Shown: positions 8,643 through 29,038 of the stretch, one piece after another
Position numbering within the stretch: the stretch's first letter is position 1
Layout: each line of letters starts with the position of its first letter
Origin: an uncultured Bryobacteraceae bacterium
GTDB taxonomy: Bacteria > Acidobacteriota > Terriglobia > Bryobacterales > Bryobacteraceae
DNA: 64,000 bases
Direction: 5' to 3'
NCBI GenBank assembly: GCA_938003835.1
Contig: CALKXJ010000002.1
Coordinates: forward strand, 1-64,000
Position numbers and translations under genes: made by a program
Notes under the pieces: generated by a model
Told to the model about the DNA's origin: nothing
What the model saw: the letters and a program-made list of their open reading frames with translations, nothing else
Database searches by the model: none

Positions 8643-9881
8643 TCAGCGCGTTTGTTGGGTGGAACGCTCCTCGCCCAGGATGTGGTGAAACTTATAGCTG
8701 ACCTCGACCGGCATGCCCTGCTTCAGGCGCGCGTGAAGCACCACCTGGTAGTGGCGAGGCAGGCGCCCTCCCTCCTTGAGCCTGGCGACCAGATCGGCCG
8801 CGTAGGACGGCTGCGTCATATAGCGGACCGCGGCGAGCGTTCCCTCGGTCGAGTTCGCCCCGAGGATCAGGATCTCGCCTCGCTGATGCAGCCCATGAAT
8901 GCGCGTGATGAGAGCATAGTCGGAGATCCGGTAAGGAGACTCGGGCGGCCACTCGCCGCGCAGCGACACCGGCTCGCCCGGCCGCGGCTTCAAATTCAGG
9001 ATTTCGCCCGGAACCATCAGCAGTTCCAGCCCCCCCGGCAACTCCCGGAGCTGGGGGTTGAACTTGGTGGAACCTAGAAAGATGACGTCCTGACGTTCGA
9101 TGTCTTCCCAGGAGACGCTAGTTGAGCGTTTGATGTTGACCTCACGGCGCCGGCCGGCGAGCAGCCGCACGAGCTCCGTCGCCCCGATCGCCTCGCCCAC
9201 GCCCGTGTACAGGTAGGTCGGCACAGGCGCCAGCTCTGGGAACCCTCGGCGGAGGGCGGCCAGGTACGGGGAAAGGTCGAGTTCTTGTGGCTCGTTGGCC
9301 GCCGGATCTCGGAGGAAGACCCGGCCCAGATGCGCGAACATGGGTGTCCCAAGGCCGATCAGGAGCGGCCGGGAGCTGGTCAGGAACGGGCGCCACAGCT
9401 CCTCGAGCGCCGGCGTCCATGCCACGGCCGGCGGCGCAGGGTGGCGCTGAACTGGCAGGAGCACGAGCAGCGAGAGCGCAACGCCGAGGAGCGCGCCAAA
9501 CAGGCCGGCCAGCAGCAGCTTGGGCAGCCACGTCTTCCTCGGCACCGGCTCTTGTGGTCGGGTCTCGAATTCGAGCTTGAAGCGTCCCTTGGGAAACTGG
9601 ACCCGCACCAGATCGCCGGAGCCTTCCGTGCGGTAGTATTCTTCAAGCTTCTGCCGGAGCTTGGCCGCCTGGACCCGAACCGACGCATCCTGCTGGGGGT
9701 TATAAGTGGGCGGCTTGCCGAAGGCCTCCAGCCCGACCGTGTACTCTTTGAGCTGGTCGGCCTCGCCGTTGAGCGATTTCTCGCCCAGATAAGCCAGGAG
9801 CCGCCGCAGACCGCCGGCTTGACGGAACGTCTCCGAGTTGAGAATGCGGTCGAGCTGGCGCCGCCTCTCCTCGGTGACCAT
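8643..9881 (-). CDS. Membrane-anchored regulator-like protein
   Basis: A 412-residue protein. Residues 1-110 look like a compact helical, possibly winged-helix domain (LDRILNSETFRQ ... DASVRVQAAKLRQKLEEYY), a type I associate with acidobacterial regulator-like proteins. One transmembrane segment follows (about 118-145, LLLAGLFGALLGVALSLLVLL), then a large soluble domain of about 260 residues with no motif I recognise. The layout suggests a CadC/ToxR-like one-piece regulator with a periplasmic sensor. The gene is divergent from the TonB receptor with a 128-bp gap containing an imperfect palindrome, consistent with control of that receptor. DNA binding is inferred, not proven. Confidence 0.55.
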   Translation of the reverse strand: MVTEERRRQLDRILNSETFRQAGGLRRLLAYLGEKSLNGEADQLKEYTVGLEAFGKPPTYNPQQDASVRVQAAKLRQKLEEYYRTEGSGDLVRVQFPKGRFKLEFETRPQEPVPRKTWLPKLLLAGLFGALLGVALSLLVLLPVQRHPAPPAVAWTPALEELWRPFLTSSRPLLIGLGTPMFAHLGRVFLRDPAANEPQELDLSPYLAALRRGFPELAPVPTYLYTGVGEAIGATELVRLLAGRRREVNIKRSTSVSWEDIERQDVIFLGSTKFNPQLRELPGGLELLMVPGEILNLKPRPGEPVSLRGEWPPESPYRISDYALITRIHGLHQRGEILILGANSTEGTLAAVRYMTQPSYAADLVARLKEGGRLPRHYQVVLHARLKQGMPVEVSYKFHHILGEERSTQQTR

Positions 9882-9918
9882 CAGCGGGCAACCTCTTAAC
9901 TTCTCCCAGGATATCGCA

Positions 9919-9938
9919 GTTAACGACCGGTAGCTAAC
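9919..9938. promoter_or_regulatory. Imperfect 20-bp palindrome between divergent regulator and TonB receptor
   Basis: The 20 bp are centred on CCGG, with outer arms GTTA/TAAC; 16 of 20 positions are symmetric. It lies 22 bp upstream of the TTGACA of the receptor promoter, where a repressor or activator site would be expected. Confidence 0.4.
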
Positions 9939-9959
9939 CTCGGCTGCACCAAGAGCTCC

Positions 9960-9988
9960 TTGACAGCCGGCTATCGTCCTCCCATCAT
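9960..9988 (+). promoter_or_regulatory. Candidate promoter of the TonB-receptor operon
   Basis: A perfect -35 TTGACA (9960-9965) is followed after 17 bp by CATCAT (9983-9988, four of six consensus bases). A GGGAGG ribosome site lies at 9993-9998, which would leave a very short leader, so the start point is uncertain. Confidence 0.45.
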
Positions 9989-10009
9989 TGAGCGGGAGGC
10001 AGAATATCG

Positions 10010-13000
10010 ATGCGTCGACTACTCGCCCTGACCCTGGTCACCGGGGTCGGGCTTTTGGCTCAGGACTACCGGGGCAGTCTGCTGGGGCGCGTAACGGACC
10101 CGACGGGCGCCGTCATCCCCGGCGCCGGGGTGGTGGCCGAGCGCGAAGGAACCAGCGTCCGGCTGAGCACCGCAACCAACGCCGAGGGAAACTACCTGCT
10201 ACCGAATCTTGAACCGGGCAACTACACCCTCACATTCGAATCGAGCGGTTTCAAGAAGCTCGTCCGGCCCGGCATCACGATCCGGACCGGCGACAAATTG
10301 GAAGTCAATGTGCAGCTGGAGGTCGGAACGCCGACCGAATCGATCACCATCACGGCCGAGCTGCCGCTGCTACAGACCGCCTCGGCCGACATTGCCCAGG
10401 TGGTCGAGCGCCGCTTCGTCGACATGCTCTATGTTCCGAACCGGAACCCGCTCTCATTGATTGCGCTCACCCCCGGGGTGCGCAGCGAATCGGAGTGGTT
10501 CGGCGGGCGATTTGCCGACTCGCAGCAGCACTTCTTCAGCGTCCACGGCGGCGGCGCCACCATGGGGCGCAACGAAATCGTCGTCGATGGCGCCTCGGTC
10601 GTCATGCCCCGGCAAGGGGGCTCGATCGGAACTTCGCCCTCCGGGGACACCGTCGAGGAATTGCGCGTGCAGACCACGATGTTCGACGCCGCTTACGGGC
10701 ACTCCAACGGCGGCGTCATCAGCTATGCCACCCGTTCCGGCACCAACGACCTGCACGGCTCCTTTGAGGGCTTCATTCGCAATGAGATCTTCAACGCCAA
10801 CTCCTGGACGAACAACAAACGCGGCGTCCCCCGGCCCGATGACAACCGCCAGTTCTACTCGGGCACGCTCGGAGGACCGCTCTATTTACCCAAGCTCTAC
10901 GACGGCCGCAACCGAACCTTCTTCTTCACCTCGGTGCAATGGGAGGGCAGCAAGGGCGGCACCACCTACTCGGCGCGCGTTCCGACGGAGGCGGAGCGCA
11001 AGGGCGATTTCTCGCAGACGCTGAACGCTCAGGGCACGCCGCTCACCATCTACAATCCGTACTCGAGCGTCGTCAGCGGGACGAAGGTCACCCGAGAGCC
11101 CTTCCCGGGCAACGTGATCCCCGGATCGCTGCACAACGAGACGGGGCGGGCGGTCATGTCCGTCTACCCCGCCCCCAATCTCAACGTCCCCGCCCAGATC
11201 GGCCTCTACAACTGGGTGGCCCAATCCAGCACCAGCGTGCCTTCCAAGCAGATCAGCCAGCGGATCGATCATGTCATCAGCCCCCGGCAGCGCCTCTTTG
11301 GCCGCTTCGCCTTCATGGACTATGGCGTACACTTCAGCGCGATCCCGCAAGGGCTTCGCAGCGCCCCCATCGGCGGGACGCCGAATGCCGATTTCCGGCA
11401 CTTCTATAACGCCAGCCTCAACGACGACTTCACCTTTTCGCCGACCGCCTTCGGCTCACTCCGAATCGCCTTCAGCCGCTACTGGAGCGACACGGTCTTC
11501 TCGGGCAACAGCCTTGATCCCAAGGTTCTCAAGCTCCACCCGGATATCCTTGCCAACCAGATGCGGCCGGCCTGGCCCGGCATCGACATGAGCGAAGGCT
11601 TTTACATGATCGGGCACCGCTTCAAGATCCGCGCCAACGACTCCTACGTCATCACGCCGGCCTTGACCCAACTGAGCGGCGCCCACAACCTGCGCTTCGG
11701 CGGCGACTTCCGCATCGTGAACTGGAACGAGATCAGCCCGGACTCGCAGGCCGCCGGCTACTTTACTTTTCGGCCCACCTTCACCGTCTCCGACCCGTTC
11801 GTCGCGGCGTCCAGTCGCGTCAGCGGCACCGCCATGGCCAGTCTTTTGATGGGCATACCGGATTCGGGCGCGATCTCCGGCCCGGCGCCCTACGCGCTGC
11901 GCAGCTACTATAGCGCGGTCTATGTACAGGACGACTGGAAGATCACGCGCAAACTCACGCTCAATATCGGCCTGCGCTGGGAGGTCGAGACGCCCTACAC
12001 GGAGCGGTTCAATCAGTTGAGCTGGGGCTTCGATTACTACGCCGCCAATCCCGTCAAGGTTCCCGGCCTGGATCTCAGAGGGGGCCTGATCTTTGCGGGC
12101 GTCGACAATGTGAGCCGGCGGCAGGGCAAGACCGACTGGAACAACCTGGGCCCCCGCTTCGGCTTCGCCTACCAGTTGCTGCCCTCCACGGTGATCCGCG
12201 GCGGCTACGGCCTGTTCTACTCGAGCGGGGTGATCAACCAGGACATCACGCTGGCGATCCCGCCGACCTTCTCCACCTCCATCCCTTACGTGGGCACGGT
12301 GGATCGGGGCGTGACGCCTTACACGACGCTCGCCGCTCCGTTTCCGCAGGGCGTACCCCGGCCGAGCGGCGCCTCCGAGCGGCTGGCGGCGCGCGTGGGA
12401 GACTCGATCTCGTTTCTGGCGCAGGATCGCGTGCTGCCCTACGCCCAGCAGTGGCAGTTCGGCATCCAGCAGGCACTGCCCGCGCAAACCCGAATTGAGG
12501 CCGCTTTCGTGCGGATGCTCAGCGTCAAGGGCTTCCAGGGTTTCAACCTGAACGAGAAGCCGGACAGATACCTGGAGCTGGGCGCCGCTGAGAACACCCG
12601 CGTGCCCAATCCCTTCTACGGGGTCCTGCCGGCCAACCGCCCGCTCGGCAGCTCCAGCACGATTGCGCAGCGGCAGTTCTGGCTCGCCTATCCGCAGTTC
12701 ACCTCCGTCAGCCAGCAAGGCACCAACGCCGCCACAACGGTCTATCATGCGGTTTTCCTGAACGTCGAGAAGCGGCTGACGCACGGCCTGACCGTGCTGT
12801 TCAACCACACGATCTCGAAGATGATCGAGAACAATCTGAGCAGCCTGGTCAACAAGCGCTACTGGCGGGCGATCTCCGATATGGACCGGCCGCACGTGAC
12901 GAATCTGGCCTTCGTCTATGACCTGCCGTTCGGCAAGGGGCGGCCGTGGCTTCACAACGGGGGCGTCTTCGGAGCGCTCTTCGGCGGCTGGAGCCTCAGC

Positions 13001-20350: not shown

Positions 20351-21109
20351 TTGCTCGATCTGCTGAAGCCGCCCATCCTCGCCTTTCAAGAGTTTTTTCT
20401 CCTTACCGGGCGGACCTTCCGGAACCTGTTCCGCAAGCCCCATTACGTCGACGACATCACCATTCAGATGGATATCATCGGCGTGGGCAGCCTGCCGATC
20501 GTGATGCTGACGGGCTTCTTCGCCGGCGCAGTGATGGCGCTTCAGATGTCGCGGGCGCTCAACCAGTACGGCGCCACCGATCAGGTCGGGCAGATCGTTT
20601 CGATCACTCTGGCGCGTGAGATGGGGCCGGTGCTGACGGCGCTGCTCGTGGCCGGGCGCAATGCCAGCGGCATGGCCAGCGAGCTCGGCTCGATGAAGGT
20701 CACCGAGCAGATCGACGCCATGCGCGCCCTAGGAACCGATCCGGTGCAAAAGCTGGTCAAGCCGCGGCTGGTGGCCACGGCGATCGTGCTGCCGCTGCTC
20801 ACCATCATTGCCGACTTCGTGGGCATGTTCGGCGGCTGGGTGGTGGCCTGCCCGATGCTGAACCTCACCACCTCGTCGCAGTACTGGAGCATGGCCTGGC
20901 GCTCGCTCGAGTACAACGACATCGCCCAGGGGCTGATAAAACCTTTCGTCTTCGCCATCGTCATCGCGCTGGTGGGCTGCTTCTACGGCCTGCGCACCAC
21001 CGGAGGCACACAGGGCGTGGGCCTGGCCACGACCAAGGCGGTGGTGGTGGCCTCCGTCTGGGTGTTCGTGCTGACCTTCTTCATCGGGAAGTTCTTCGTG
21101 AGTCTGTGA
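20351..21109 (+). CDS. mlaE: MlaE-family ABC permease (lipid transport)
   Basis: A 252-residue membrane protein with about five or six hydrophobic segments and the family signatures MTGFFAGAVMALQMS, LAREMGPVLTALLVAGR and ASELGSMKVTEQIDAMRALGTDP. The TTG start at 20351 is forced, because an in-frame stop lies at 20333; GAGG at 20337-20340 supports it. MlaE permeases move phospholipids between inner and outer membranes together with MlaF and MlaD, whose genes follow at once. Direction (import or export) is not resolved by sequence. MlaB and MlaC are absent from this locus. Confidence 0.93.
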   Translation: MLDLLKPPILAFQEFFLLTGRTFRNLFRKPHYVDDITIQMDIIGVGSLPIVMLTGFFAGAVMALQMSRALNQYGATDQVGQIVSITLAREMGPVLTALLVAGRNASGMASELGSMKVTEQIDAMRALGTDPVQKLVKPRLVATAIVLPLLTIIADFVGMFGGWVVACPMLNLTTSSQYWSMAWRSLEYNDIAQGLIKPFVFAIVIALVGCFYGLRTTGGTQGVGLATTKAVVVASVWVFVLTFFIGKFFVSL

Positions 21110-21116
21110 TCGCGAA

Positions 21117-21947
21117 ATGACGGGCGATCGCGGCGAACCGATCCTCCGCTTCGAGCACGTCAGTCTGTTCTTCGACGAGCAGCCGGCGCTCGACGACGTC
21201 TCGTTTGCTTTGTTCCCCGGCGCATCCTGCGTGATCCTGGGCGCGGCCGGCAGCGGCAAGACGGTGCTGCTCAAGACGGCCATCGGCCTCGTCAAGCCGG
21301 ACCGGGGCCATGTGTGGCTGTTCGGCCGCGACATCACGGCGATACCGGAAAGCGAGCTGGTGGACCTGCGCAGCCGCGTGGGCATTCTTTTTCAGGAGGG
21401 CGGCCTGTTCGATTCGCTCACCATCGAGGAAAATGTCGCCTATCCTTTGCTGAACCAGCGGGCCTTGCGCTGCCCGCGCGATCAGGTGCGGGCCCGGGTG
21501 GAGGCCGCCCTCGCGCGCGTGGAGCTCGAGCATACACTCGAGAAGTACCCGAGCGAGCTCTCCGGAGGCATGCGCCGCCGCGTCGGCATCGCCCGCGCCA
21601 ACGTCACCGAGCCGCCGCTGGTGCTCTACGATTCGCCGACGGCGGGCCTGGATCCGATCACCGCCCACACGATCATGACCCTGATCCTGAAGGAGCGCGA
21701 CACCAAGAACACCACCACGGTGATCGTCACCCATCGCTACCAGGACGGGCATCTGCTAGCGAATTTCCGCTACAACCCGGCGACGAACCGGATCGAGCCG
21801 CTCGCGCACGACGGGCGTCACGCCGCCTCCGACACGAAGTTCCTGGTGATGCGCGAGGGCCGGCTGGTGTTCGAGGGGTCGCAGGCGGAACTGGAGGCTT
21901 CGGCCGATCCGTACGTCCAAAAGTTCGTCAAACCTCTGAGAAACTAA
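21117..21947 (+). CDS. mlaF: MlaF-family ABC ATPase
   Basis: The 276-residue ATPase has a Walker A LGAAGSGKT, Q-loop in ILFQEGGLFDSLT, signature LSGGMRRRV and Walker B VLYDSPTAGLDP. FQEGGLFDSLT and the SGGMRRR signature are typical of the MlaF/Ttg2A subfamily that energises MCE transporters. The C-terminal tail (about 215-276) is longer than in E. coli. It lies 7 nt downstream of mlaE and 13 nt upstream of mlaD, forming a three-gene operon. Confidence 0.93.
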   Translation: MTGDRGEPILRFEHVSLFFDEQPALDDVSFALFPGASCVILGAAGSGKTVLLKTAIGLVKPDRGHVWLFGRDITAIPESELVDLRSRVGILFQEGGLFDSLTIEENVAYPLLNQRALRCPRDQVRARVEAALARVELEHTLEKYPSELSGGMRRRVGIARANVTEPPLVLYDSPTAGLDPITAHTIMTLILKERDTKNTTTVIVTHRYQDGHLLANFRYNPATNRIEPLAHDGRHAASDTKFLVMREGRLVFEGSQAELEASADPYVQKFVKPLRN

Positions 21948-21960
21948 AAGGAAGAGAGAA

Positions 21961-23034
21961 ATGCCATCAGCCAAAAGAGTTCGATGGGCCCAGCTCAAGG
22001 TGGGCATCATGGCGGCCGTCGCCCTGTTGCTGCTGGCGATTCTGGTCTTCCTGCTCACCGGCGAACGGCGCTTCTTCGCCGAACGGGTCAAGATCTACAC
22101 CTATCTCGACGATTCCTACGCCATTACGCCGGGATCTCCGGTGCGGCTGAACGGGATCCTCATCGGCGAGATCCGCAGCGTCACGTTATCCGGTGAGGCC
22201 GATCCCAACCGGGTGGTCCGGGTCGAGATGGAGGTGGACCGGGAGACGCTGCGCGGCATCCCCACGGATTCGATCGCCACCGTGGCGGCGCTCAACGTGC
22301 TCGGCGCCAAGTACATCAACATCAAGCGCGGGCGCGCGCAGGCGACGGTGGAGCCGGGCGGCGAAATCGCCAGCCTGGACACGCGGGGCTTCGAGGAAGT
22401 GGTGGCCTCGGGCTACGAGGTGATGACGGCGGTTCGGGGGCTGGTCAAGCGCGCTTCGGATATCATCGAGGACGTCGAAGCCGGCAAGGGCAGCATCGGC
22501 AAGCTGCTCACCGACGAGTCGCTGTACAACAATCTGAACGGCACCGTCGCCGAGGCGCGCAAGATCACCGAGGCACTGAACCGCGGCGAAGGCACCATCG
22601 GAAAGCTCCTCTATGACGAAGGCGTCTATAACGACGTGCGCGCCACGGTGGCGCGTGTCGACCGGCTGATCGAAGAGATCGAAGGCGGGCAGGGCACGGC
22701 CGGCAAGTTCCTGAAAGATCCGGCGGTCTACGACGAGCTGCGCTCCACCATCGGCGAGGCGCGCAAGCTGATTGCCGGTTTGAACGAGGGCAGGGGCACC
22801 GCGGGCAAGCTGCTCAAGGACGAGGAGCTTCACCGGCAGATCGCCCGCGTGGTCGAGCGCCTGGACCAGACGCTCGAGAAGGTAAACACGGGCGAAGGCA
22901 CGCTCGGCCAGTTGCTGGTGAATCCGCAACTGTACGAATCGCTCAACGGCACCACCCGGGAGATGCACGAGCTGATGAAGGACTTCCGGGCCAATCCCAA
23001 GAAGTTCCTGCGCATCAAGCTGGCGCTGTTCTAA
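21961..23034 (+). CDS. mlaD: MlaD/MCE-domain protein with 34-residue C-terminal repeats
   Basis: The 357-residue protein has one N-terminal transmembrane helix (about 14-33) and an MCE domain (about 42-125: YLDDSYAITPGSPVRLNGILIGEI ... LGAKYINIKRG). The C-terminal half then contains five copies of a motif G-x-G-T-x-G-K-L-L beginning at residues 175, 209, 243, 277 and 311, an exact 34-residue period. MCE domains form hexameric rings; the repeats may build the helical barrel that spans the periplasm. AAAGGAAGAG precedes the ATG. Solid assignment; the exact lipid substrate is unknown. Confidence 0.92.
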   Translation: MPSAKRVRWAQLKVGIMAAVALLLLAILVFLLTGERRFFAERVKIYTYLDDSYAITPGSPVRLNGILIGEIRSVTLSGEADPNRVVRVEMEVDRETLRGIPTDSIATVAALNVLGAKYINIKRGRAQATVEPGGEIASLDTRGFEEVVASGYEVMTAVRGLVKRASDIIEDVEAGKGSIGKLLTDESLYNNLNGTVAEARKITEALNRGEGTIGKLLYDEGVYNDVRATVARVDRLIEEIEGGQGTAGKFLKDPAVYDELRSTIGEARKLIAGLNEGRGTAGKLLKDEELHRQIARVVERLDQTLEKVNTGEGTLGQLLVNPQLYESLNGTTREMHELMKDFRANPKKFLRIKLALF

Positions 23035-23066: not shown

Positions 23067-24356
23067 ATGCAGCGGAGGACCTTTCTGTTCACGGCCGCCT
23101 CGGCGCGTCGGGTCGCGGGCGCCGGCGAGCGCGTCGTGGTCGGCCTCATCGGCTGCGGAGGACGGGGCATGTACGTGGCGCGTCACATGCGCGACTCCGG
23201 CGGCGCCCTCTTCGGCGCGGTCTGTGACGTCTACGAGCCGAACCGCACCAAGGCGCGCGAGTGGGCCGGGGCGCAAGCGCGGGCCTATGGCGATTTCCGC
23301 CACCTGCTCGAGCAGAAAGATCTGGACGCGGTTCTCGTAGCCACCCCCGACCACTGGCACGCCATCCCGACAATTCTGGCCTGCGAGGCAGGCAAGCATG
23401 TCTATGTGGAGAAGCCGCTGGCGCACAACATCCGCGAGGGGCGCGCCATGGTCGAGGCGGCGCGGCGCACCGGCCGGATCGTCCAGACGGGCACGCAGCA
23501 ACGCTCGGCGCCGCATTTTGCCGAGCTCGCCGAAATCGTTCAGAGCGGCGCGCTCGGCCAAGTCCATTTCGTCCGGGTCTGGAACTACTTCAACACCTAT
23601 CCGGACGGGATCGGCCGGGAGCCGGATTCCGAGCCGCCGCCGGGCCTGGACTGGGACTTCTACCTCGGGCCGGCGCCGTGGGTCCCCTTCAACCGGAAGC
23701 GCTTTCTCGGCACCTACCGGTTCTTCTGGGACTATGCCGGCGGGTACATCACTGACTTCGGTACCCACCGTTTCGATACGGTCCACCAGATCATGGGCCG
23801 GGACGCGCCGGTGACGGTGGCGGCGGCCGGAGGGCGCTTCGCGCTGGCCGATGCCGGAGAGATGCCGGACGTCTTGCAGGTCACGTACGAATACCCCGGA
23901 TTCATCCTCTCCTATGAGACGTGCAGCCTGAATGCGCACGGCATGGGCGGCAGGACGCCAGGGATGGAATATTATCGCGCTCGCGGGCCTTACGACCAGC
24001 CGCACGGGATGGCCTTCTATGGGACCAACGGCACGATCTTCGCCGAGCGCATCGGCTACGAAATCTTTCCCGAGGATGATCGCATCGCCGCGCGGCGCAA
24101 GAACGTCCCCGATGCCACGCCGCAGCACGCCCGGAACTTCATCGACGCCATCCGGGGCCTGGCGAAGCCCGCCGCGCCCGTCGAGGCCGGTCACCGGGCC
24201 ACCACGGTGGGCCACTTGGGCAACATCGCGTATCTAACGGGGCGCAAGCTCGTCTGGAACGCGCAGAAGGAAGAGTGCGACGGCGACGCCGAAGCCAACC
24301 GCCTGCTCGGGCGCAAGGCGCGAAAACCTTGGGATCTCGTAGGATGGGAGCGATGA
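23067..24356 (+). CDS. Gfo/Idh/MocA-family NAD(P)-dependent oxidoreductase
   Basis: A 429-residue oxidoreductase. The N-terminus (QRRTFLFTA) resembles the start of a Tat signal, but a charged ARRVAG segment interrupts the hydrophobic part, so secretion is doubtful. The Rossmann fold has GLIGCGGRGMYVA, then ATPDHWHA and the catalytic-lysine EKP motif in VYVEKPLAHN; GGYITDFGTHRFDTVH follows in the C-terminal domain. Such enzymes oxidise or epimerise sugars or inositols. TATAAG at 23053-23058 is 8 nt before the ATG, so the transcript may be leaderless. It overlaps the HAD phosphatase start by 4 nt, placing it at the head of the sugar operon. Confidence 0.88.
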   Translation: MQRRTFLFTAASARRVAGAGERVVVGLIGCGGRGMYVARHMRDSGGALFGAVCDVYEPNRTKAREWAGAQARAYGDFRHLLEQKDLDAVLVATPDHWHAIPTILACEAGKHVYVEKPLAHNIREGRAMVEAARRTGRIVQTGTQQRSAPHFAELAEIVQSGALGQVHFVRVWNYFNTYPDGIGREPDSEPPPGLDWDFYLGPAPWVPFNRKRFLGTYRFFWDYAGGYITDFGTHRFDTVHQIMGRDAPVTVAAAGGRFALADAGEMPDVLQVTYEYPGFILSYETCSLNAHGMGGRTPGMEYYRARGPYDQPHGMAFYGTNGTIFAERIGYEIFPEDDRIAARRKNVPDATPQHARNFIDAIRGLAKPAAPVEAGHRATTVGHLGNIAYLTGRKLVWNAQKEECDGDAEANRLLGRKARKPWDLVGWER

Positions 24357-25159
24357 TCGAATGTTTACGGCCCGGTGTGTCGGCCGAGCGCGCGCGGGTG
24401 GTTCTCTTTGACTTCGACGGCACGCTCTCGCTCATCCGCTCCGGATGGGTCGAGGTGATGGTGCCGATGATGGTGGAGATTCTGGCCGACCTCAAGACCG
24501 GGGAAAGCGAAGCCGAATTGCGCGCCGTGGTCGAGGAGTACGTGGGGCGCCTCACCGGCAAGCAGACCATTTACCAGATGATCGCCCTGGCCGAGGAGGT
24601 GCGCAAACGCGGCGGCACGCCGAAGGATCCGCTCGAGTACAAGCACCAGTACCTCGCCCTGCTCTGGGAGCGGATCAAGGACCGCGTGGCCGAGCTCGAG
24701 CGGGGCGAGGCGCCGCCGGAAAAATATCTCGTCCCCGGCTCGATTGAGCTGCTCGAAAGCCTGAAGGAGCGCGGCCTGAAGATGTACCTGGCGAGCGGCA
24801 CGGATCAGGTCTACATGCGGCGCGAGGCGGAGCTTCTGGGGCTGACGCGGTACTTCGACGGGGGCGTCTACGGGGCGCTCGACGATTACAAGAGCTTCTC
24901 CAAGGCCATCCTGATCCAGCGCATCATCTCGACCGCCGAGGCGCGCGGCGAGGAGCTGCTCGGCTTTGGCGACGGTTATGTCGAGATCGAAAACGTCAAG
25001 CAGGTGGGCGGCGTCGCCGTCGGCGTAGCTACCGACGAGCCTGAGTGCCGGCAGATCAATGAATGGAAACGGCGCCGCCTGGCCGGCGTGGGTGCGGATC
25101 TGATTATCCCGAACTATCTGGAACGCGACGAACTGTTGCGCCTGCTGTTTCCGCGGTGA
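24353..25159 (+). CDS. HAD-superfamily phosphatase
   Basis: The ATG at 24353 overlaps the preceding stop (ATGA), giving 268 residues. HAD motif I is FDFDGT (nucleophile Asp20, acid Asp22), motif II is YLASGTD, motif III Lys lies in DDYKSFSKA and motif IV is GFGDGYVEIE. An alpha-helical cap covers about 40-130. It should remove phosphate from a small sugar phosphate or similar molecule. It is not of the GmhB subfamily found in known heptose pathways, but sits in an operon with GmhA-like and HldE1-like proteins. Substrate is inferred only from neighbours. Confidence 0.82.
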   Translation: MIECLRPGVSAERARVVLFDFDGTLSLIRSGWVEVMVPMMVEILADLKTGESEAELRAVVEEYVGRLTGKQTIYQMIALAEEVRKRGGTPKDPLEYKHQYLALLWERIKDRVAELERGEAPPEKYLVPGSIELLESLKERGLKMYLASGTDQVYMRREAELLGLTRYFDGGVYGALDDYKSFSKAILIQRIISTAEARGEELLGFGDGYVEIENVKQVGGVAVGVATDEPECRQINEWKRRRLAGVGADLIIPNYLERDELLRLLFPR

Positions 25160-26124
25160 GCTCCAAGTATCCGATTTTCGACCGTTCGCGGCTGAAGGTG
25201 AAGCCGCTTGCCGAACGCAAGAGCGATCTGAGCGTCGAGGCCTGGCTGGGGTTGGACGACCCCGCGCCGGAGTTCTCCCACCCGGAGCTCGCCCGGGTGG
25301 CGGCGCGCCTCGATGAAGCCCGCCGCCGGGGCGGCGCCCGAATTCTCATGATGGGCGCGCATCTGGTCCGCGCCGGTGTCAGCCGGCACCTGATCGATTT
25401 GATCGAACAGGGCTGGATCGACCACATCGCGATGAACGGCGCCGGGGCCATTCACGATTGGGAACTGGCCCGCATCGGCGCCACCACCGAGAGCGTTGCC
25501 CGCTACATCGCGACGGGCGAATTCGGCCTGTGGCGCGAGACCGGCGAGCTCAATGATGTGGTGCGCGAAGCGGCAGCCTGCTCGCTCGGCCTGGGGGAAA
25601 ACGTCGGGCGAAGGATCGCCCAAAGCGACTTTCCCTACCGCGACCTCAGCATTCTGGCGGCGGCCTGGCAAAGGTCGGTGCCCGCCACCGTGCACGTCGG
25701 CATCGGCTACGACATCCTCCACGAACATCCCAACTGCGACGGGGCGGCCTTCGGCGAAGCCAGTTACCGCGACTTCCTCATCTTTGCCCGCACGGTGGAG
25801 CGGCTCGAAGGCGGCGTGCTGCTCAGCTTCGGCTCCGCCGTCATGGCGCCCGAGGTTTATCTCAAGGCTCTGGCGATGGCGCGCAACGTGGCGCATCAGG
25901 AAGGGCGTGTGATCCGGCACTTCGCCACGGCGGTCTTCGACATCGTGCCGATCCGCGGCGACATCCATCGAGAGCTCGACAAGAGCGATCCCGGCTACTA
26001 CTTCCGGCCGCACAAGACGATCCTGGTGCGTACGGTGGCTGACGGCGGGGAGAGCTTCTATTTCTGCGGCCCGCACCGGGCGACGCTACCGGCGCTGTGG
26101 CGGCTGCTCCGGAGCTTCGAATGA
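25156..26124 (+). CDS. Deoxyhypusine-synthase-like protein
   Basis: The GTG at 25156 overlaps the HAD stop (GTGA) and gives 322 residues. ILMMGAHLVRAGVSRHLIDLI followed by WIDHIAMNGAGAIHDWELA resembles the NAD-binding core of deoxyhypusine/homospermidine-synthase-like proteins. I do not see the WGK-type catalytic lysine motif of true deoxyhypusine synthase near the C-terminus; LSFGSAVMAPEVYLKAL is found there instead. Bacteria lack eIF5A, so a different reaction is likely, perhaps an NAD-dependent redox step on a substrate supplied by the flanking sugar enzymes. Coupled to both neighbours by 4-nt overlaps. Confidence 0.65.
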   Translation: MSSKYPIFDRSRLKVKPLAERKSDLSVEAWLGLDDPAPEFSHPELARVAARLDEARRRGGARILMMGAHLVRAGVSRHLIDLIEQGWIDHIAMNGAGAIHDWELARIGATTESVARYIATGEFGLWRETGELNDVVREAAACSLGLGENVGRRIAQSDFPYRDLSILAAAWQRSVPATVHVGIGYDILHEHPNCDGAAFGEASYRDFLIFARTVERLEGGVLLSFGSAVMAPEVYLKALAMARNVAHQEGRVIRHFATAVFDIVPIRGDIHRELDKSDPGYYFRPHKTILVRTVADGGESFYFCGPHRATLPALWRLLRSFE

Positions 26125-27101
26125 ACGCGGGCGAAATCCTCGAGCGGTTGCGGAATCTGGCGGCGCTGGTTGTCGGCGACATTTGCCTTGATCGCTGGTG
26201 TGAATACGACCCGGCGGCCACGGAGCCCTCGCGCGAAACCGGCCTGGCGCGCATCGCGGTGGTCCGCACCGAGGTCACGCCCGGCGCCGGGGGCACGGTG
26301 GCCAACAACCTGGCGGCGCTGGGGGTCGCCCGGACGGCGGTTCTGGGCGCCATCGGCGAAGACGGCTTCGCCTACGAGCTCGTCGGCGCCCTTCGCGCCC
26401 GCCATATCGAGTCCGAGCTGCTGGTCACCAGCGCCAGGATCCAGACCTTCACCTACACGAAGCTGCTCAACGCCGAGACCGGCGTCGAGGACCTGCCCCG
26501 CGTCGACTTCATCAACAACCGTCCGCTGCCCGAAGAGCTGGAACGCGAAGTGGTCGATCGCCTCCGGCGCCACGCGCGGGACTTCGACGTCATCCTGGTG
26601 TCCGACCAGGCAGAGACGGCGCAGGGAGGCGTGGTGACCGCCGCGGTCCGGGAACTGCTTCGCGAGCTGGCCGCCGCGTTCCCGGAGAAGGTCTTCTGGG
26701 TGGACTCGCGCATGCGGGCGGAGCTGTTTCGCGGCGTCATTGTCAAGCCCAACCGGGAGGAGGCCGAGGCGGCCTGCCGCCGCGCCTTCGGCGAGGTCGA
26801 CTTCGAGCGGCTGCGGCGGCATGTCGGGGCGCCCTTTCTGGTGGTCACGCACGGCGCGCGCGGGGCGCTCGTGGTGACGCCGGAGGGCGAAAGCTGGGTG
26901 CCGACCCGTCCGGTGGCGAACCCCGTGGACATATGCGGCGCCGGCGACAGCTTCTCGGCCGGGGCGGCGCTGGCGCTGAGGGTCACCGGCTCTCCGATCG
27001 AGGCCGCGCGCTTCGGCAATCTCATCGCTTCGATCACCATCATGAAGAAGGGCACCGGTACGGCCTCGCCCGAAGAGGTGCTGAGAGCGGCGGCATGTTG
27101 A
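26121..27101 (+). CDS. PfkB-family kinase, HldE1/RfaE domain-I-like
   Basis: The ATG at 26121 overlaps the previous stop. The 326-residue kinase has an N-terminal VVGDICLDRW, a Gly-rich TPGAGGTVANNLAALG, and the catalytic-base motif CGAGDSFSAG with GAGD at 273-276. The N-terminal pattern matches the sugar-kinase half of HldE (D-glycero-beta-D-manno-heptose-7-phosphate kinase) better than fructokinase or ribokinase. It lacks the nucleotidyltransferase half. Substrate is probably a sugar-7-phosphate made by the GmhA-like isomerase encoded downstream, but this is inferred. Confidence 0.8.
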   Translation: MNAGEILERLRNLAALVVGDICLDRWCEYDPAATEPSRETGLARIAVVRTEVTPGAGGTVANNLAALGVARTAVLGAIGEDGFAYELVGALRARHIESELLVTSARIQTFTYTKLLNAETGVEDLPRVDFINNRPLPEELEREVVDRLRRHARDFDVILVSDQAETAQGGVVTAAVRELLRELAAAFPEKVFWVDSRMRAELFRGVIVKPNREEAEAACRRAFGEVDFERLRRHVGAPFLVVTHGARGALVVTPEGESWVPTRPVANPVDICGAGDSFSAGAALALRVTGSPIEAARFGNLIASITIMKKGTGTASPEEVLRAAAC

Positions 27102-27943
27102 CTTTGGCGATCGATATCGGCGGCACGAAGTTCTCCATGGCGCTCTTTGACGGCGAGCGCATGAAGCGGCGCGAATCCCGCGCCACGGACCGCGAAGGCG
27201 GGCGGGCCTGGATGATGGAGCAGATCCTGGCGATCGCCCGGCTCTGGCAGCAGGCAGAGCGGATTGAACGCTGCGGGATCGGCTTCGGCGGGCCGGTGAT
27301 CTTCCGCGAGCAACGCGTGGCGCTCTCGACCCACGTGGGCGGATGGAGCAATGTGCCGCTGGCGGCCGAGATCGAAGCCGAGCTCGGCATCCCGTGCGTC
27401 ATGGACAACGACGCCAACACGGGCGCACTGGGCGAAGCGCTGTACGGGGCGGGCGTCGGCTACGACCCGCTTTTCTACATGACGCTGTCCACCGGCATCG
27501 GCGGCGGCATCATCTCCGAGGGCCGCATCTGGCGGGGCGCTGATTCCTATGCCGGCGAGGTCGGCCACCTGACCACCCGCCCGGACGGCCCGGAATGCCT
27601 CTGCGGCGCGCGCGGATGCTATGAACGCATGTGCAGCGGCCTGTGGCTGGAACGCGATTACGGCCGCCCCGCCACAGAGCTCCTCAAAGATCCGGCCTTC
27701 GTCGCCCGCTACGTCGTCGATCTGGCGCTGGGCCTGAAGGCCGTCATCATGCTGCTCAATCCGGCGCGGATCGTCATCGGCGGCGGCATCAGCAAGGCGG
27801 GCGAGGCGCTGTTTGGGCCACTCCGGGCCGAACTCCGCCGGCAGATCACCTCTTGGTCGCAGGCACGGCTGGACGTCGTCCCGGCCGCGCTCGGCGACGA
27901 CAGCGTTCTTTACGGGGCGCTCGCACTGGCCGCGTCGCGATAG
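27095..27943 (+). CDS. ROK-family sugar kinase
   Basis: The ATG at 27095 overlaps the PfkB gene by 7 nt; 282 residues. The ATP-binding IDIGGTK is at residues 7-13, the catalytic Asp is in MDNDANTG (Asp106), and the ROK zinc site is complete, with His158 and Cys168-x-Cys170-x4-Cys175. No N-terminal helix-turn-helix is present, so this is a kinase and not a ROK repressor. Family members phosphorylate glucose, N-acetylmannosamine, allose and related sugars. It gives the operon a second sugar kinase. Confidence 0.87.
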   Translation: MLTLAIDIGGTKFSMALFDGERMKRRESRATDREGGRAWMMEQILAIARLWQQAERIERCGIGFGGPVIFREQRVALSTHVGGWSNVPLAAEIEAELGIPCVMDNDANTGALGEALYGAGVGYDPLFYMTLSTGIGGGIISEGRIWRGADSYAGEVGHLTTRPDGPECLCGARGCYERMCSGLWLERDYGRPATELLKDPAFVARYVVDLALGLKAVIMLLNPARIVIGGGISKAGEALFGPLRAELRRQITSWSQARLDVVPAALGDDSVLYGALALAASR

Positions 27944-27960: not shown

Positions 27961-28521
27961 ATGAATTATCCGGCGGAATACAGGAGCGAACTTCTGCGCG
28001 CGCTCGAGAGCATCGATCTGGCCAAGGTGGCGCAGGCCATCGAGTGGTTCCGCGAGGCGCGCCGCGAGGGCAAGACCATCTTCGTGTGCGGAAACGGCGG
28101 CAGCGCCGCCACGGCCTCGCACTTCGTCTGCGACATGGTCAAGGGCGCCAGCTTCAACCGTCCGGAGCGGTTCCGCATCCAGGCCCTCACCGACTCGCTA
28201 CCCACCATCACCGCGTACGCCAACGACCTAAGCTACGAGGTGGTTTTCGTCGAGCAGCTCAAGAACTTCGCCCAGCCGGGCGATCTGGTGGTGGCCATCA
28301 GCGGCTCGGGCAACTCTCCCAACGTCCTCCGCGCGGTGGAATACGCCAATTCGATCGGCTGCCGCACGCTGGCGCTCACGGGTCGCGACGGCGGGCGCCT
28401 GGGGGAGCTGGCCCAACTGAACCTGCATGTGCCGGTCATGCACATGGGCCGCATCGAAGACGCCCACCTGGTGATCTGCCACATGATCGCCTATCACTTC
28501 ATGGACGCCGAGAAGCCGTAA
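27961..28521 (+). CDS. gmhA: SIS-domain isomerase, GmhA-like (phosphoheptose isomerase)
   Basis: A 186-residue single SIS domain with FVCGNGGSAATASHFVCDM, AISGSGNSPNVLRAVEYA and the C-terminal helix IEDAHLVICHMIAYHF, all matching GmhA/DiaA-type proteins. GmhA converts sedoheptulose 7-phosphate to D-glycero-D-manno-heptose 7-phosphate. DiaA-type replication regulators share this fold, but the sugar-operon context favours GmhA. GGAAAGGAAGG precedes the ATG at 27961. Confidence 0.85.
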   Translation: MNYPAEYRSELLRALESIDLAKVAQAIEWFREARREGKTIFVCGNGGSAATASHFVCDMVKGASFNRPERFRIQALTDSLPTITAYANDLSYEVVFVEQLKNFAQPGDLVVAISGSGNSPNVLRAVEYANSIGCRTLALTGRDGGRLGELAQLNLHVPVMHMGRIEDAHLVICHMIAYHFMDAEKP

Positions 28522-28555: not shown

Positions 28556-29034
28556 ATGGAGCTCAAGGTCGTTCGTCTGGAAATTCCCGAAGGCGGCAAC
28601 ATCATCGTCGGACACACGCACTTCATCAAGACCGTCGAAGACGTCTATGAGGCCATCGTGAACACGGTGCCGCAGATGAAGTTCGGCATCGCCTTCAACG
28701 AGGCCTCGGGGCCGTGCCTGGTGCGGGCCGACGGCAACGACGAGACGCTCAAGGCGCTGGCGATCCGCAACGCGCAGGCCATCGGCGCCGGCCATACCTT
28801 CGTCATCGCGCTGCGCGAGGGCTATCCGATCAATATTCTTGGCCGGCTCAAGGAAGTGCCCGAGGTTTGCACCATCCACTGCGCCACCGCCAATCCGGTC
28901 GAGGTCGTCGTGGCCGAGACCGAGCAGGGGCGCGGCGTACTGGGCGTCATCGACGGCTCGAGCCCCAAAGGGGTGGAGAGCGAGCAGGACGTGGCGCACC
29001 GCAAGGAATTCCTCCGCAAAATCGGCTACAAGCG

Positions 29035-29038
<4 letters not shown>
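28556..29038 (+). CDS. Adenosine-specific-kinase family protein (DUF355)
   Basis: The 160-residue protein is the normal length for this small family, described from hyperthermophile structures as adenosine-binding. Recognisable stretches are [37 protein letters not shown] and [19 protein letters not shown], followed by [13 protein letters not shown]. Its physiological role is not established. A GGAGGAG site (28543-28549) lies ahead of the ATG, and its stop overlaps the next start (ATGA). Its place in a sugar-phosphate operon suggests binding or phosphorylation of a nucleoside-linked intermediate; that is inference only. Confidence 0.82.

Follow-up and report, generated by a model that had tools for sequence, protein, structure and literature searches.

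The window analysed here, a 64,000-nucleotide stretch of DNA from an uncultured Bryobacteraceae bacterium, carries five co-directional genes in the order HAD, GSU2086, PfkB, ROK and SIS (Table 1). A preliminary description had placed the second of these in a bacterial sugar operon, and the Pfam and NCBIfam assignments confirm that setting. The genes are tightly packed: HAD and GSU2086 overlap by 4 nt (GTGA, 25156–25159), GSU2086 and PfkB by another 4 nt (ATGA, 26121–26124; the PfkB ATG at 26121 lies over the GSU2086 stop), and PfkB and ROK by 7 nt. Translation of HAD may in fact begin further in, at an ATG near 24344. Whether the Gfo/Idh/MocA oxidoreductase gene directly upstream belongs to the operon is uncertain, because in other loci it adjoins the core just occasionally. 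Also upstream are three MCE/Mla-type transporter-like genes, recognized by eye, and the operon is followed directly by a gene for a protein of the Adenosine_kin family, about which little is known.

Table 1. Genes of the window and related genes mentioned in the text
Feature	Location	Strand	Basis or remark
MCE/Mla-type transporter-like genes (three)	window 20351–23034		permease, ATPase, MCE protein; by eye
Gfo/Idh/MocA oxidoreductase	window 23067–24356	+	directly upstream
HAD phosphatase	window 24275–25159	+	PF00702; C1-cap type, not GmhB type
GSU2086-family protein, clade A	window 25156–26124	+	NF052581; DHS/OCD fold (model)
PfkB sugar kinase	window 26121–27101	+	nearest HldE domain I (rfaE_dom_I 131.8 bits, cut-off 345)
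ROK-family sugar kinase	window 27095–27943	+	7-nt overlap with PfkB
GmhA-like SIS isomerase	window 27961–28521	+	TIGR00441 117.8 bits, cut-off 209.45; D65/E172
Adenosine_kin protein	window 28556–29038		PF04008
Second GSU2086 gene, clade B	same genome, L113 (C7:304000–323500), 9488–10450	−	near uvrA, an IF-2B-type gene and two enolase-family genes
DS-family gene	same genome, C7:475441–476322 (L179)		SWGK present
OCD-type gene	same genome, C7:263267–264448 (L193)		TIGR00300
D65/E172 SIS isomerase	L111, 12043–12603		
D65/E172 SIS isomerase	L112 (plasmid pDCAR1), 10920–11543		

The GSU2086-family reading frame, which has a GTG start and encodes 322 amino acids, is a real gene: its start is common to homologues (‘MxSKYxxFD’), and the full length is conserved as well. 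A search of genome_contigs returned 438 relatives, the best 80 of which were kept and are 70–80% identical to the window gene. Neither viral_contigs nor phage records held relatives of the protein, and a viral or phage origin was dropped on that ground. The preliminary description had held that a repurposed enzyme of this kind would be new; the family is in fact already in sequence databases as NCBIfam NF052581, ‘GSU2086 family protein’, named after a Geobacter gene and without an assigned function. The window protein matches this model over residues 8–316 of 322 with 382.5 bits (cut-off 250). What is new here is the link to heptose, the division of the family into two clades with two types of isomerase, and the mutual exclusion with HldD.

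In a tree, NF052581 splits into clades A and B, separated by a long branch and supported at 1.0 and 0.935, with the window copy in clade A. The partners of the window gene recur in this clade, HAD in 74 of 78 loci, PfkB in 75 of 76, ROK in 54 of 72 and SIS in 27 of 63. Plasmids carry variants of the arrangement: HAD-GSU-PfkB-SIS in Chloroflexota and, in Solidesulfovibrio, an NTase-PfkB fusion with GSU2086 and SIS, HAD being absent. The latter region (Solidesulfovibrio carbinolicus plasmid pDCAR1, 7561–14391) also encodes a NeuB-like synthase and radical SAM proteins, and its fusion has a reversed domain order.

Fold and conserved residues

Single-profile searches with the window protein fell short of every cut-off: 15.2 bits with Pfam DS (PF01916) and 25.6 bits with PF21570, each against a cut-off of 27, and 22.6 bits with TIGR00300, whose equivalog cut-off is 410.8. 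Profile–profile comparison (hhalign) gave clearer matches, with E = 7e-7 to the OCD profile and E = 1e-6 to the DS profile. A predicted model, built from 70 sequences (pLDDT 83.9, pTM 0.87), agrees with these. Its best match is ArgZ (6juy; VIA Z 19.6, 3.0 Å, 207 residues), followed by LOR/SDH (3c2q; VIA Z 18.8) and human deoxyhypusine synthase (DHS; 1dhs; VIA Z 17.4, 3.9 Å, 246 residues). The DHS-like NAD core read from the sequence at the outset is thus borne out by structure prediction and fold search, both of which were run and place the DHS Rossmann fold in the model. As to closest relatives, the DHS-type fold stands, and the NAD domains of ArgZ/AgrE and LOR/SDH come out slightly ahead of DHS itself. 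On the predicted model, the window protein has the DHS/OCD NAD fold, marginally nearer OCD than DHS, and would be expected to bind NAD.

The OCD domain of ArgZ/AgrE and LOR/SDH (TIGR00300, PF21570), which shares the same Rossmann-type fold in the model, also has in common with the window protein the motif N94-G95...H100-D101-x-E103. It differs in having only 17% identity to the window protein and in genomic setting, OCD proteins being found among amino-acid genes and the window protein among heptose genes. Deoxyhypusine synthase (PF01916), with the same predicted fold, shows weak sequence similarity across the NAD half, but its WGK motif is absent from the window protein, as the preliminary description had noted. 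An alignment against DHS, of low confidence in the C-terminal half, puts no family-invariant lysine at the catalytic position: across a family alignment of 136 members from both clades, the lysines that fall near it vary (K276 in 84 of 136, K287 in 92 of 136). K287 (RPHKT) was considered as a shifted DHS lysine and set aside, being kept in just part of the family.

Invariant over all 136 sequences are H69, H100, D101, E103, E112, E128, D186, E233, K237, R243, D262, R284, R292 and H307, with K237 the sole fully invariant lysine. The basic residues among them, K237, R243, R284 and R292, would suit phosphate binding. A candidate metal site, H180-x5-D186-x2-H189-x-H191, lost weight, since some proteins that are otherwise intact differ at one of H180, H189 and H191.

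The DHS-type fold without a WGK lysine, in a sugar-phosphate operon, indicates that the window protein is not a deoxyhypusine synthase. Elsewhere in the same genome are a genuine DS-family gene, which keeps SWGK, and a genuine OCD-type gene of TIGR00300 (Table 1), which argues against the window gene doing either job; three branches of the DHS/OCD fold are thus present together in this genome. These observations bear on the reading that the protein eliminates ammonia or oxidizes an amine, by OCD or DHS chemistry, on an amino sugar or polyamine within the same operon. Its fold, and the N-terminal NAD-region motif common to OCD and DS, are compatible with such an activity. We nevertheless consider it improbable, given the separate DS and OCD genes, the lack of conservation of the DHS lysine, and the absence of any conserved aminotransferase, polyamine or amino-acid gene from the neighbourhoods examined. 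The earlier suggestion of a repurposed NAD enzyme acting on a sugar or polyamine-sugar therefore survives in its first half: the context is of heptose-phosphate type (isomerase, HldE-like kinase, HAD phosphatase), and nothing points to polyamines or polyamine-sugars.

Two clades and two isomerase types

Clades A and B differ in the isomerases encoded near them. At positions with functional roles in the active site of Escherichia coli GmhA, the window SIS protein retains H61 and H180 and carries the changes E65→D, T120→G and Q172→E (E. coli numbering). By these residues (D65, G120, E172) and by its TIGR00441 score below the cut-off, it is not a canonical GmhA. D65 and E172 recur in the clade A SIS proteins of all 25 Acidobacteriota examined and of two other phyla. 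By contrast, SIS genes near clade B keep E65, T120 and Q172 in ten of ten cases. The partner of clade B is thus genuine GmhA, and that of clade A a modified version of it. A heptose reading of clade A calls for caution, as its SIS does not reach the equivalog cut-off of GmhA, nor its PfkB that of HldE.

In about 24 cases, almost all of them in clade B, a GSU2086 gene has gmhA on its own strand at a distance of roughly 1 kb or less (lists compared by hand), and one cluster (L164/L212) has the order GmhB-GSU-HldE-GmhA. The Geobacter sulfurreducens namesake of NF052581 is encoded between hldE and gmhA (PMC5585712). In Tn-Seq of this bacterium on electrodes, the three genes had similar losses: −3.1 for hldE (GSU2085), −3.2 for GSU2086 and −3.7 for gmhA (GSU2087) (PMC5585712). 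Geobacter GSU2086 is probably clade B-like, since the NF052581 model gives clade B the higher scores.

Many clade B genes, including the second copy in the window genome, have other neighbours. They lie beside housekeeping genes (UvrA, QueA, TilS, CoaE) and far from sugar genes, and clade B neighbourhoods, GmhA excepted, were discarded as a guide to function. This scatter matters for the idea that the protein is no enzyme but assists or regulates the isomerase or kinase. Tight translational coupling to its neighbours would fit such a role, but a partner protein would hardly be expected so far from the genes it serves, nor with some 14 charged or histidine positions invariant over 136 sequences and two clades; we regard this as the least probable of the readings considered, well into the very unlikely.

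Distribution relative to HldD

Among 297 Acidobacteriota genomes, GSU2086 is present in 93 and HldD, the ADP-glyceromanno-heptose 6-epimerase (TIGR02197), scores over the cut-off in 66; only two genomes (G024 and G050) have both. The GSU2086 protein of G050 (L162) belongs to clade A by the tree, and G024, whose copy is unplaced, is of the same genus. HldD can thus coexist with clade A, and clade A itself can coexist with clade B (G000). Of 188 genomes with a strong GmhA match, 72 have GSU2086, 62 have HldD and none has both; gmhA without hldD is accordingly common in the Acidobacteriota sampled (126 of the 188), and the 72 genomes with GSU2086 fall within those 126.

The pattern is sharpest within a single taxonomic family (f21), where 119 genomes divide into 73 with GSU2086, 36 with HldD (one a fragment), 10 with neither and none with both. 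On an rpoB tree of 80 of its genomes the GSU2086 and HldD labels swap seven times (bootstrap range 6–7), at least four of the swaps falling on strongly supported branches, and every independent pair that differs in both traits goes in opposite directions. A conservative sign test on four independent pairs gives p = 0.125, a value set by there being just four swaps on strongly supported branches. Counting taxonomic families instead of genomes gives no significant exclusion (both genes in 3 families, where about 5 would be expected from 40 and 10 among about 80), so its weight rests on the repeated swaps within the family and on the lack of any genome there with both. Mutual exclusion with HldD is in this way shown for clade B, in one phylum.

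One swap can be seen within a genus of this family. A genome with GSU2086 (G105) and one with HldD (G251) share the same GmhA-containing NTase fusion, HldE-I kinase and heptosyltransferase-like gene; the kinase of the former scores 391.7 bits against the cut-off of 345. By exclusion in the 119 genomes, HldD occupies the same pathway slot as clade B. The two proteins are otherwise dissimilar: HldD is an extended SDR with a fold different from that of DHS and OCD, and TIGR02197 gave no match to the window protein in the NCBIfam scan. As a separate observation, the HldD matches in seven genomes of one genus (g37; G174, G150, G106, G053, G087, G205 and G027) each contain one in-frame stop codon.

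Proposed reaction

In DHS and OCD, NAD oxidizes the substrate and the hydride is then returned, with no net redox change. Transferred by analogy to a sugar phosphate, this hydride chemistry would make an epimerase or redox isomerase: bound NAD would oxidize a sugar hydroxyl to the ketone, and re-reduction would complete an epimerization. The substrate would be a heptose phosphate that the GmhA-like isomerase supplies and on which the HldE-like kinase and the HAD phosphatase also act. Clade B, often a neighbour of canonical gmhA, would substitute for the ADP-heptose 6-epimerase HldD. Clade A, with an isomerase, kinase and phosphatase of its own, would probably carry out the same type of reaction on a related sugar phosphate, though this is less certain. 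To the whole of this reading, in which the window protein is an NAD-dependent heptose-phosphate enzyme without net redox change, probably an epimerase, with clade B replacing HldD and clade A serving a parallel pathway, we give an even chance. The epimerase chemistry is proposed by analogy with DHS and OCD, and the substrate from the gene context. Of the papers searched, one mentions GSU2086 and none connects deoxyhypusine synthase with heptose.

Two features of clade B would narrow the reaction further. Replacement of HldD points to C6, and proximity to gmhA favours a phosphorylated heptose over ADP-heptose. On this basis the family could be a second heptose C6 epimerase, unrelated in fold to the first, that works ahead of nucleotide activation and has taken over from HldD on repeated occasions, with clade A performing the same step in an unrecognized heptose-like pathway; so specific a version is somewhat likelier to be wrong than right.

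The exclusion could also reflect two alternative heptoses rather than one reaction. Bound NAD might then serve in the synthesis of an altered heptose (a deoxy or keto form, or one of other stereochemistry), HldD and GSU2086 leading to different core heptoses. Linkage and exclusion fit this too, and the E65→D and Q172→E changes of the clade A isomerase in three phyla suggest a different sugar. The within-genus swaps, however, leave the GmhA, HldE and heptosyltransferase operon unchanged, for which replacement of one step is the simpler account, and we hold a modified heptose to be possible but rather unlikely.

In many Gram-negative bacteria heptose is among the core constituents of the outer membrane; ADP-heptose acts as a signal to innate immunity. 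If these proteins supply the step that is missing from genomes with gmhA but no hldD, a widespread uncharacterized family would acquire a function, and the DHS/OCD fold would reach beyond amine chemistry to that of sugars. The GmhA-like SIS proteins with D65 and E172, found in three phyla (Table 1), form a subfamily in their own right, possibly the isomerase for another sugar.
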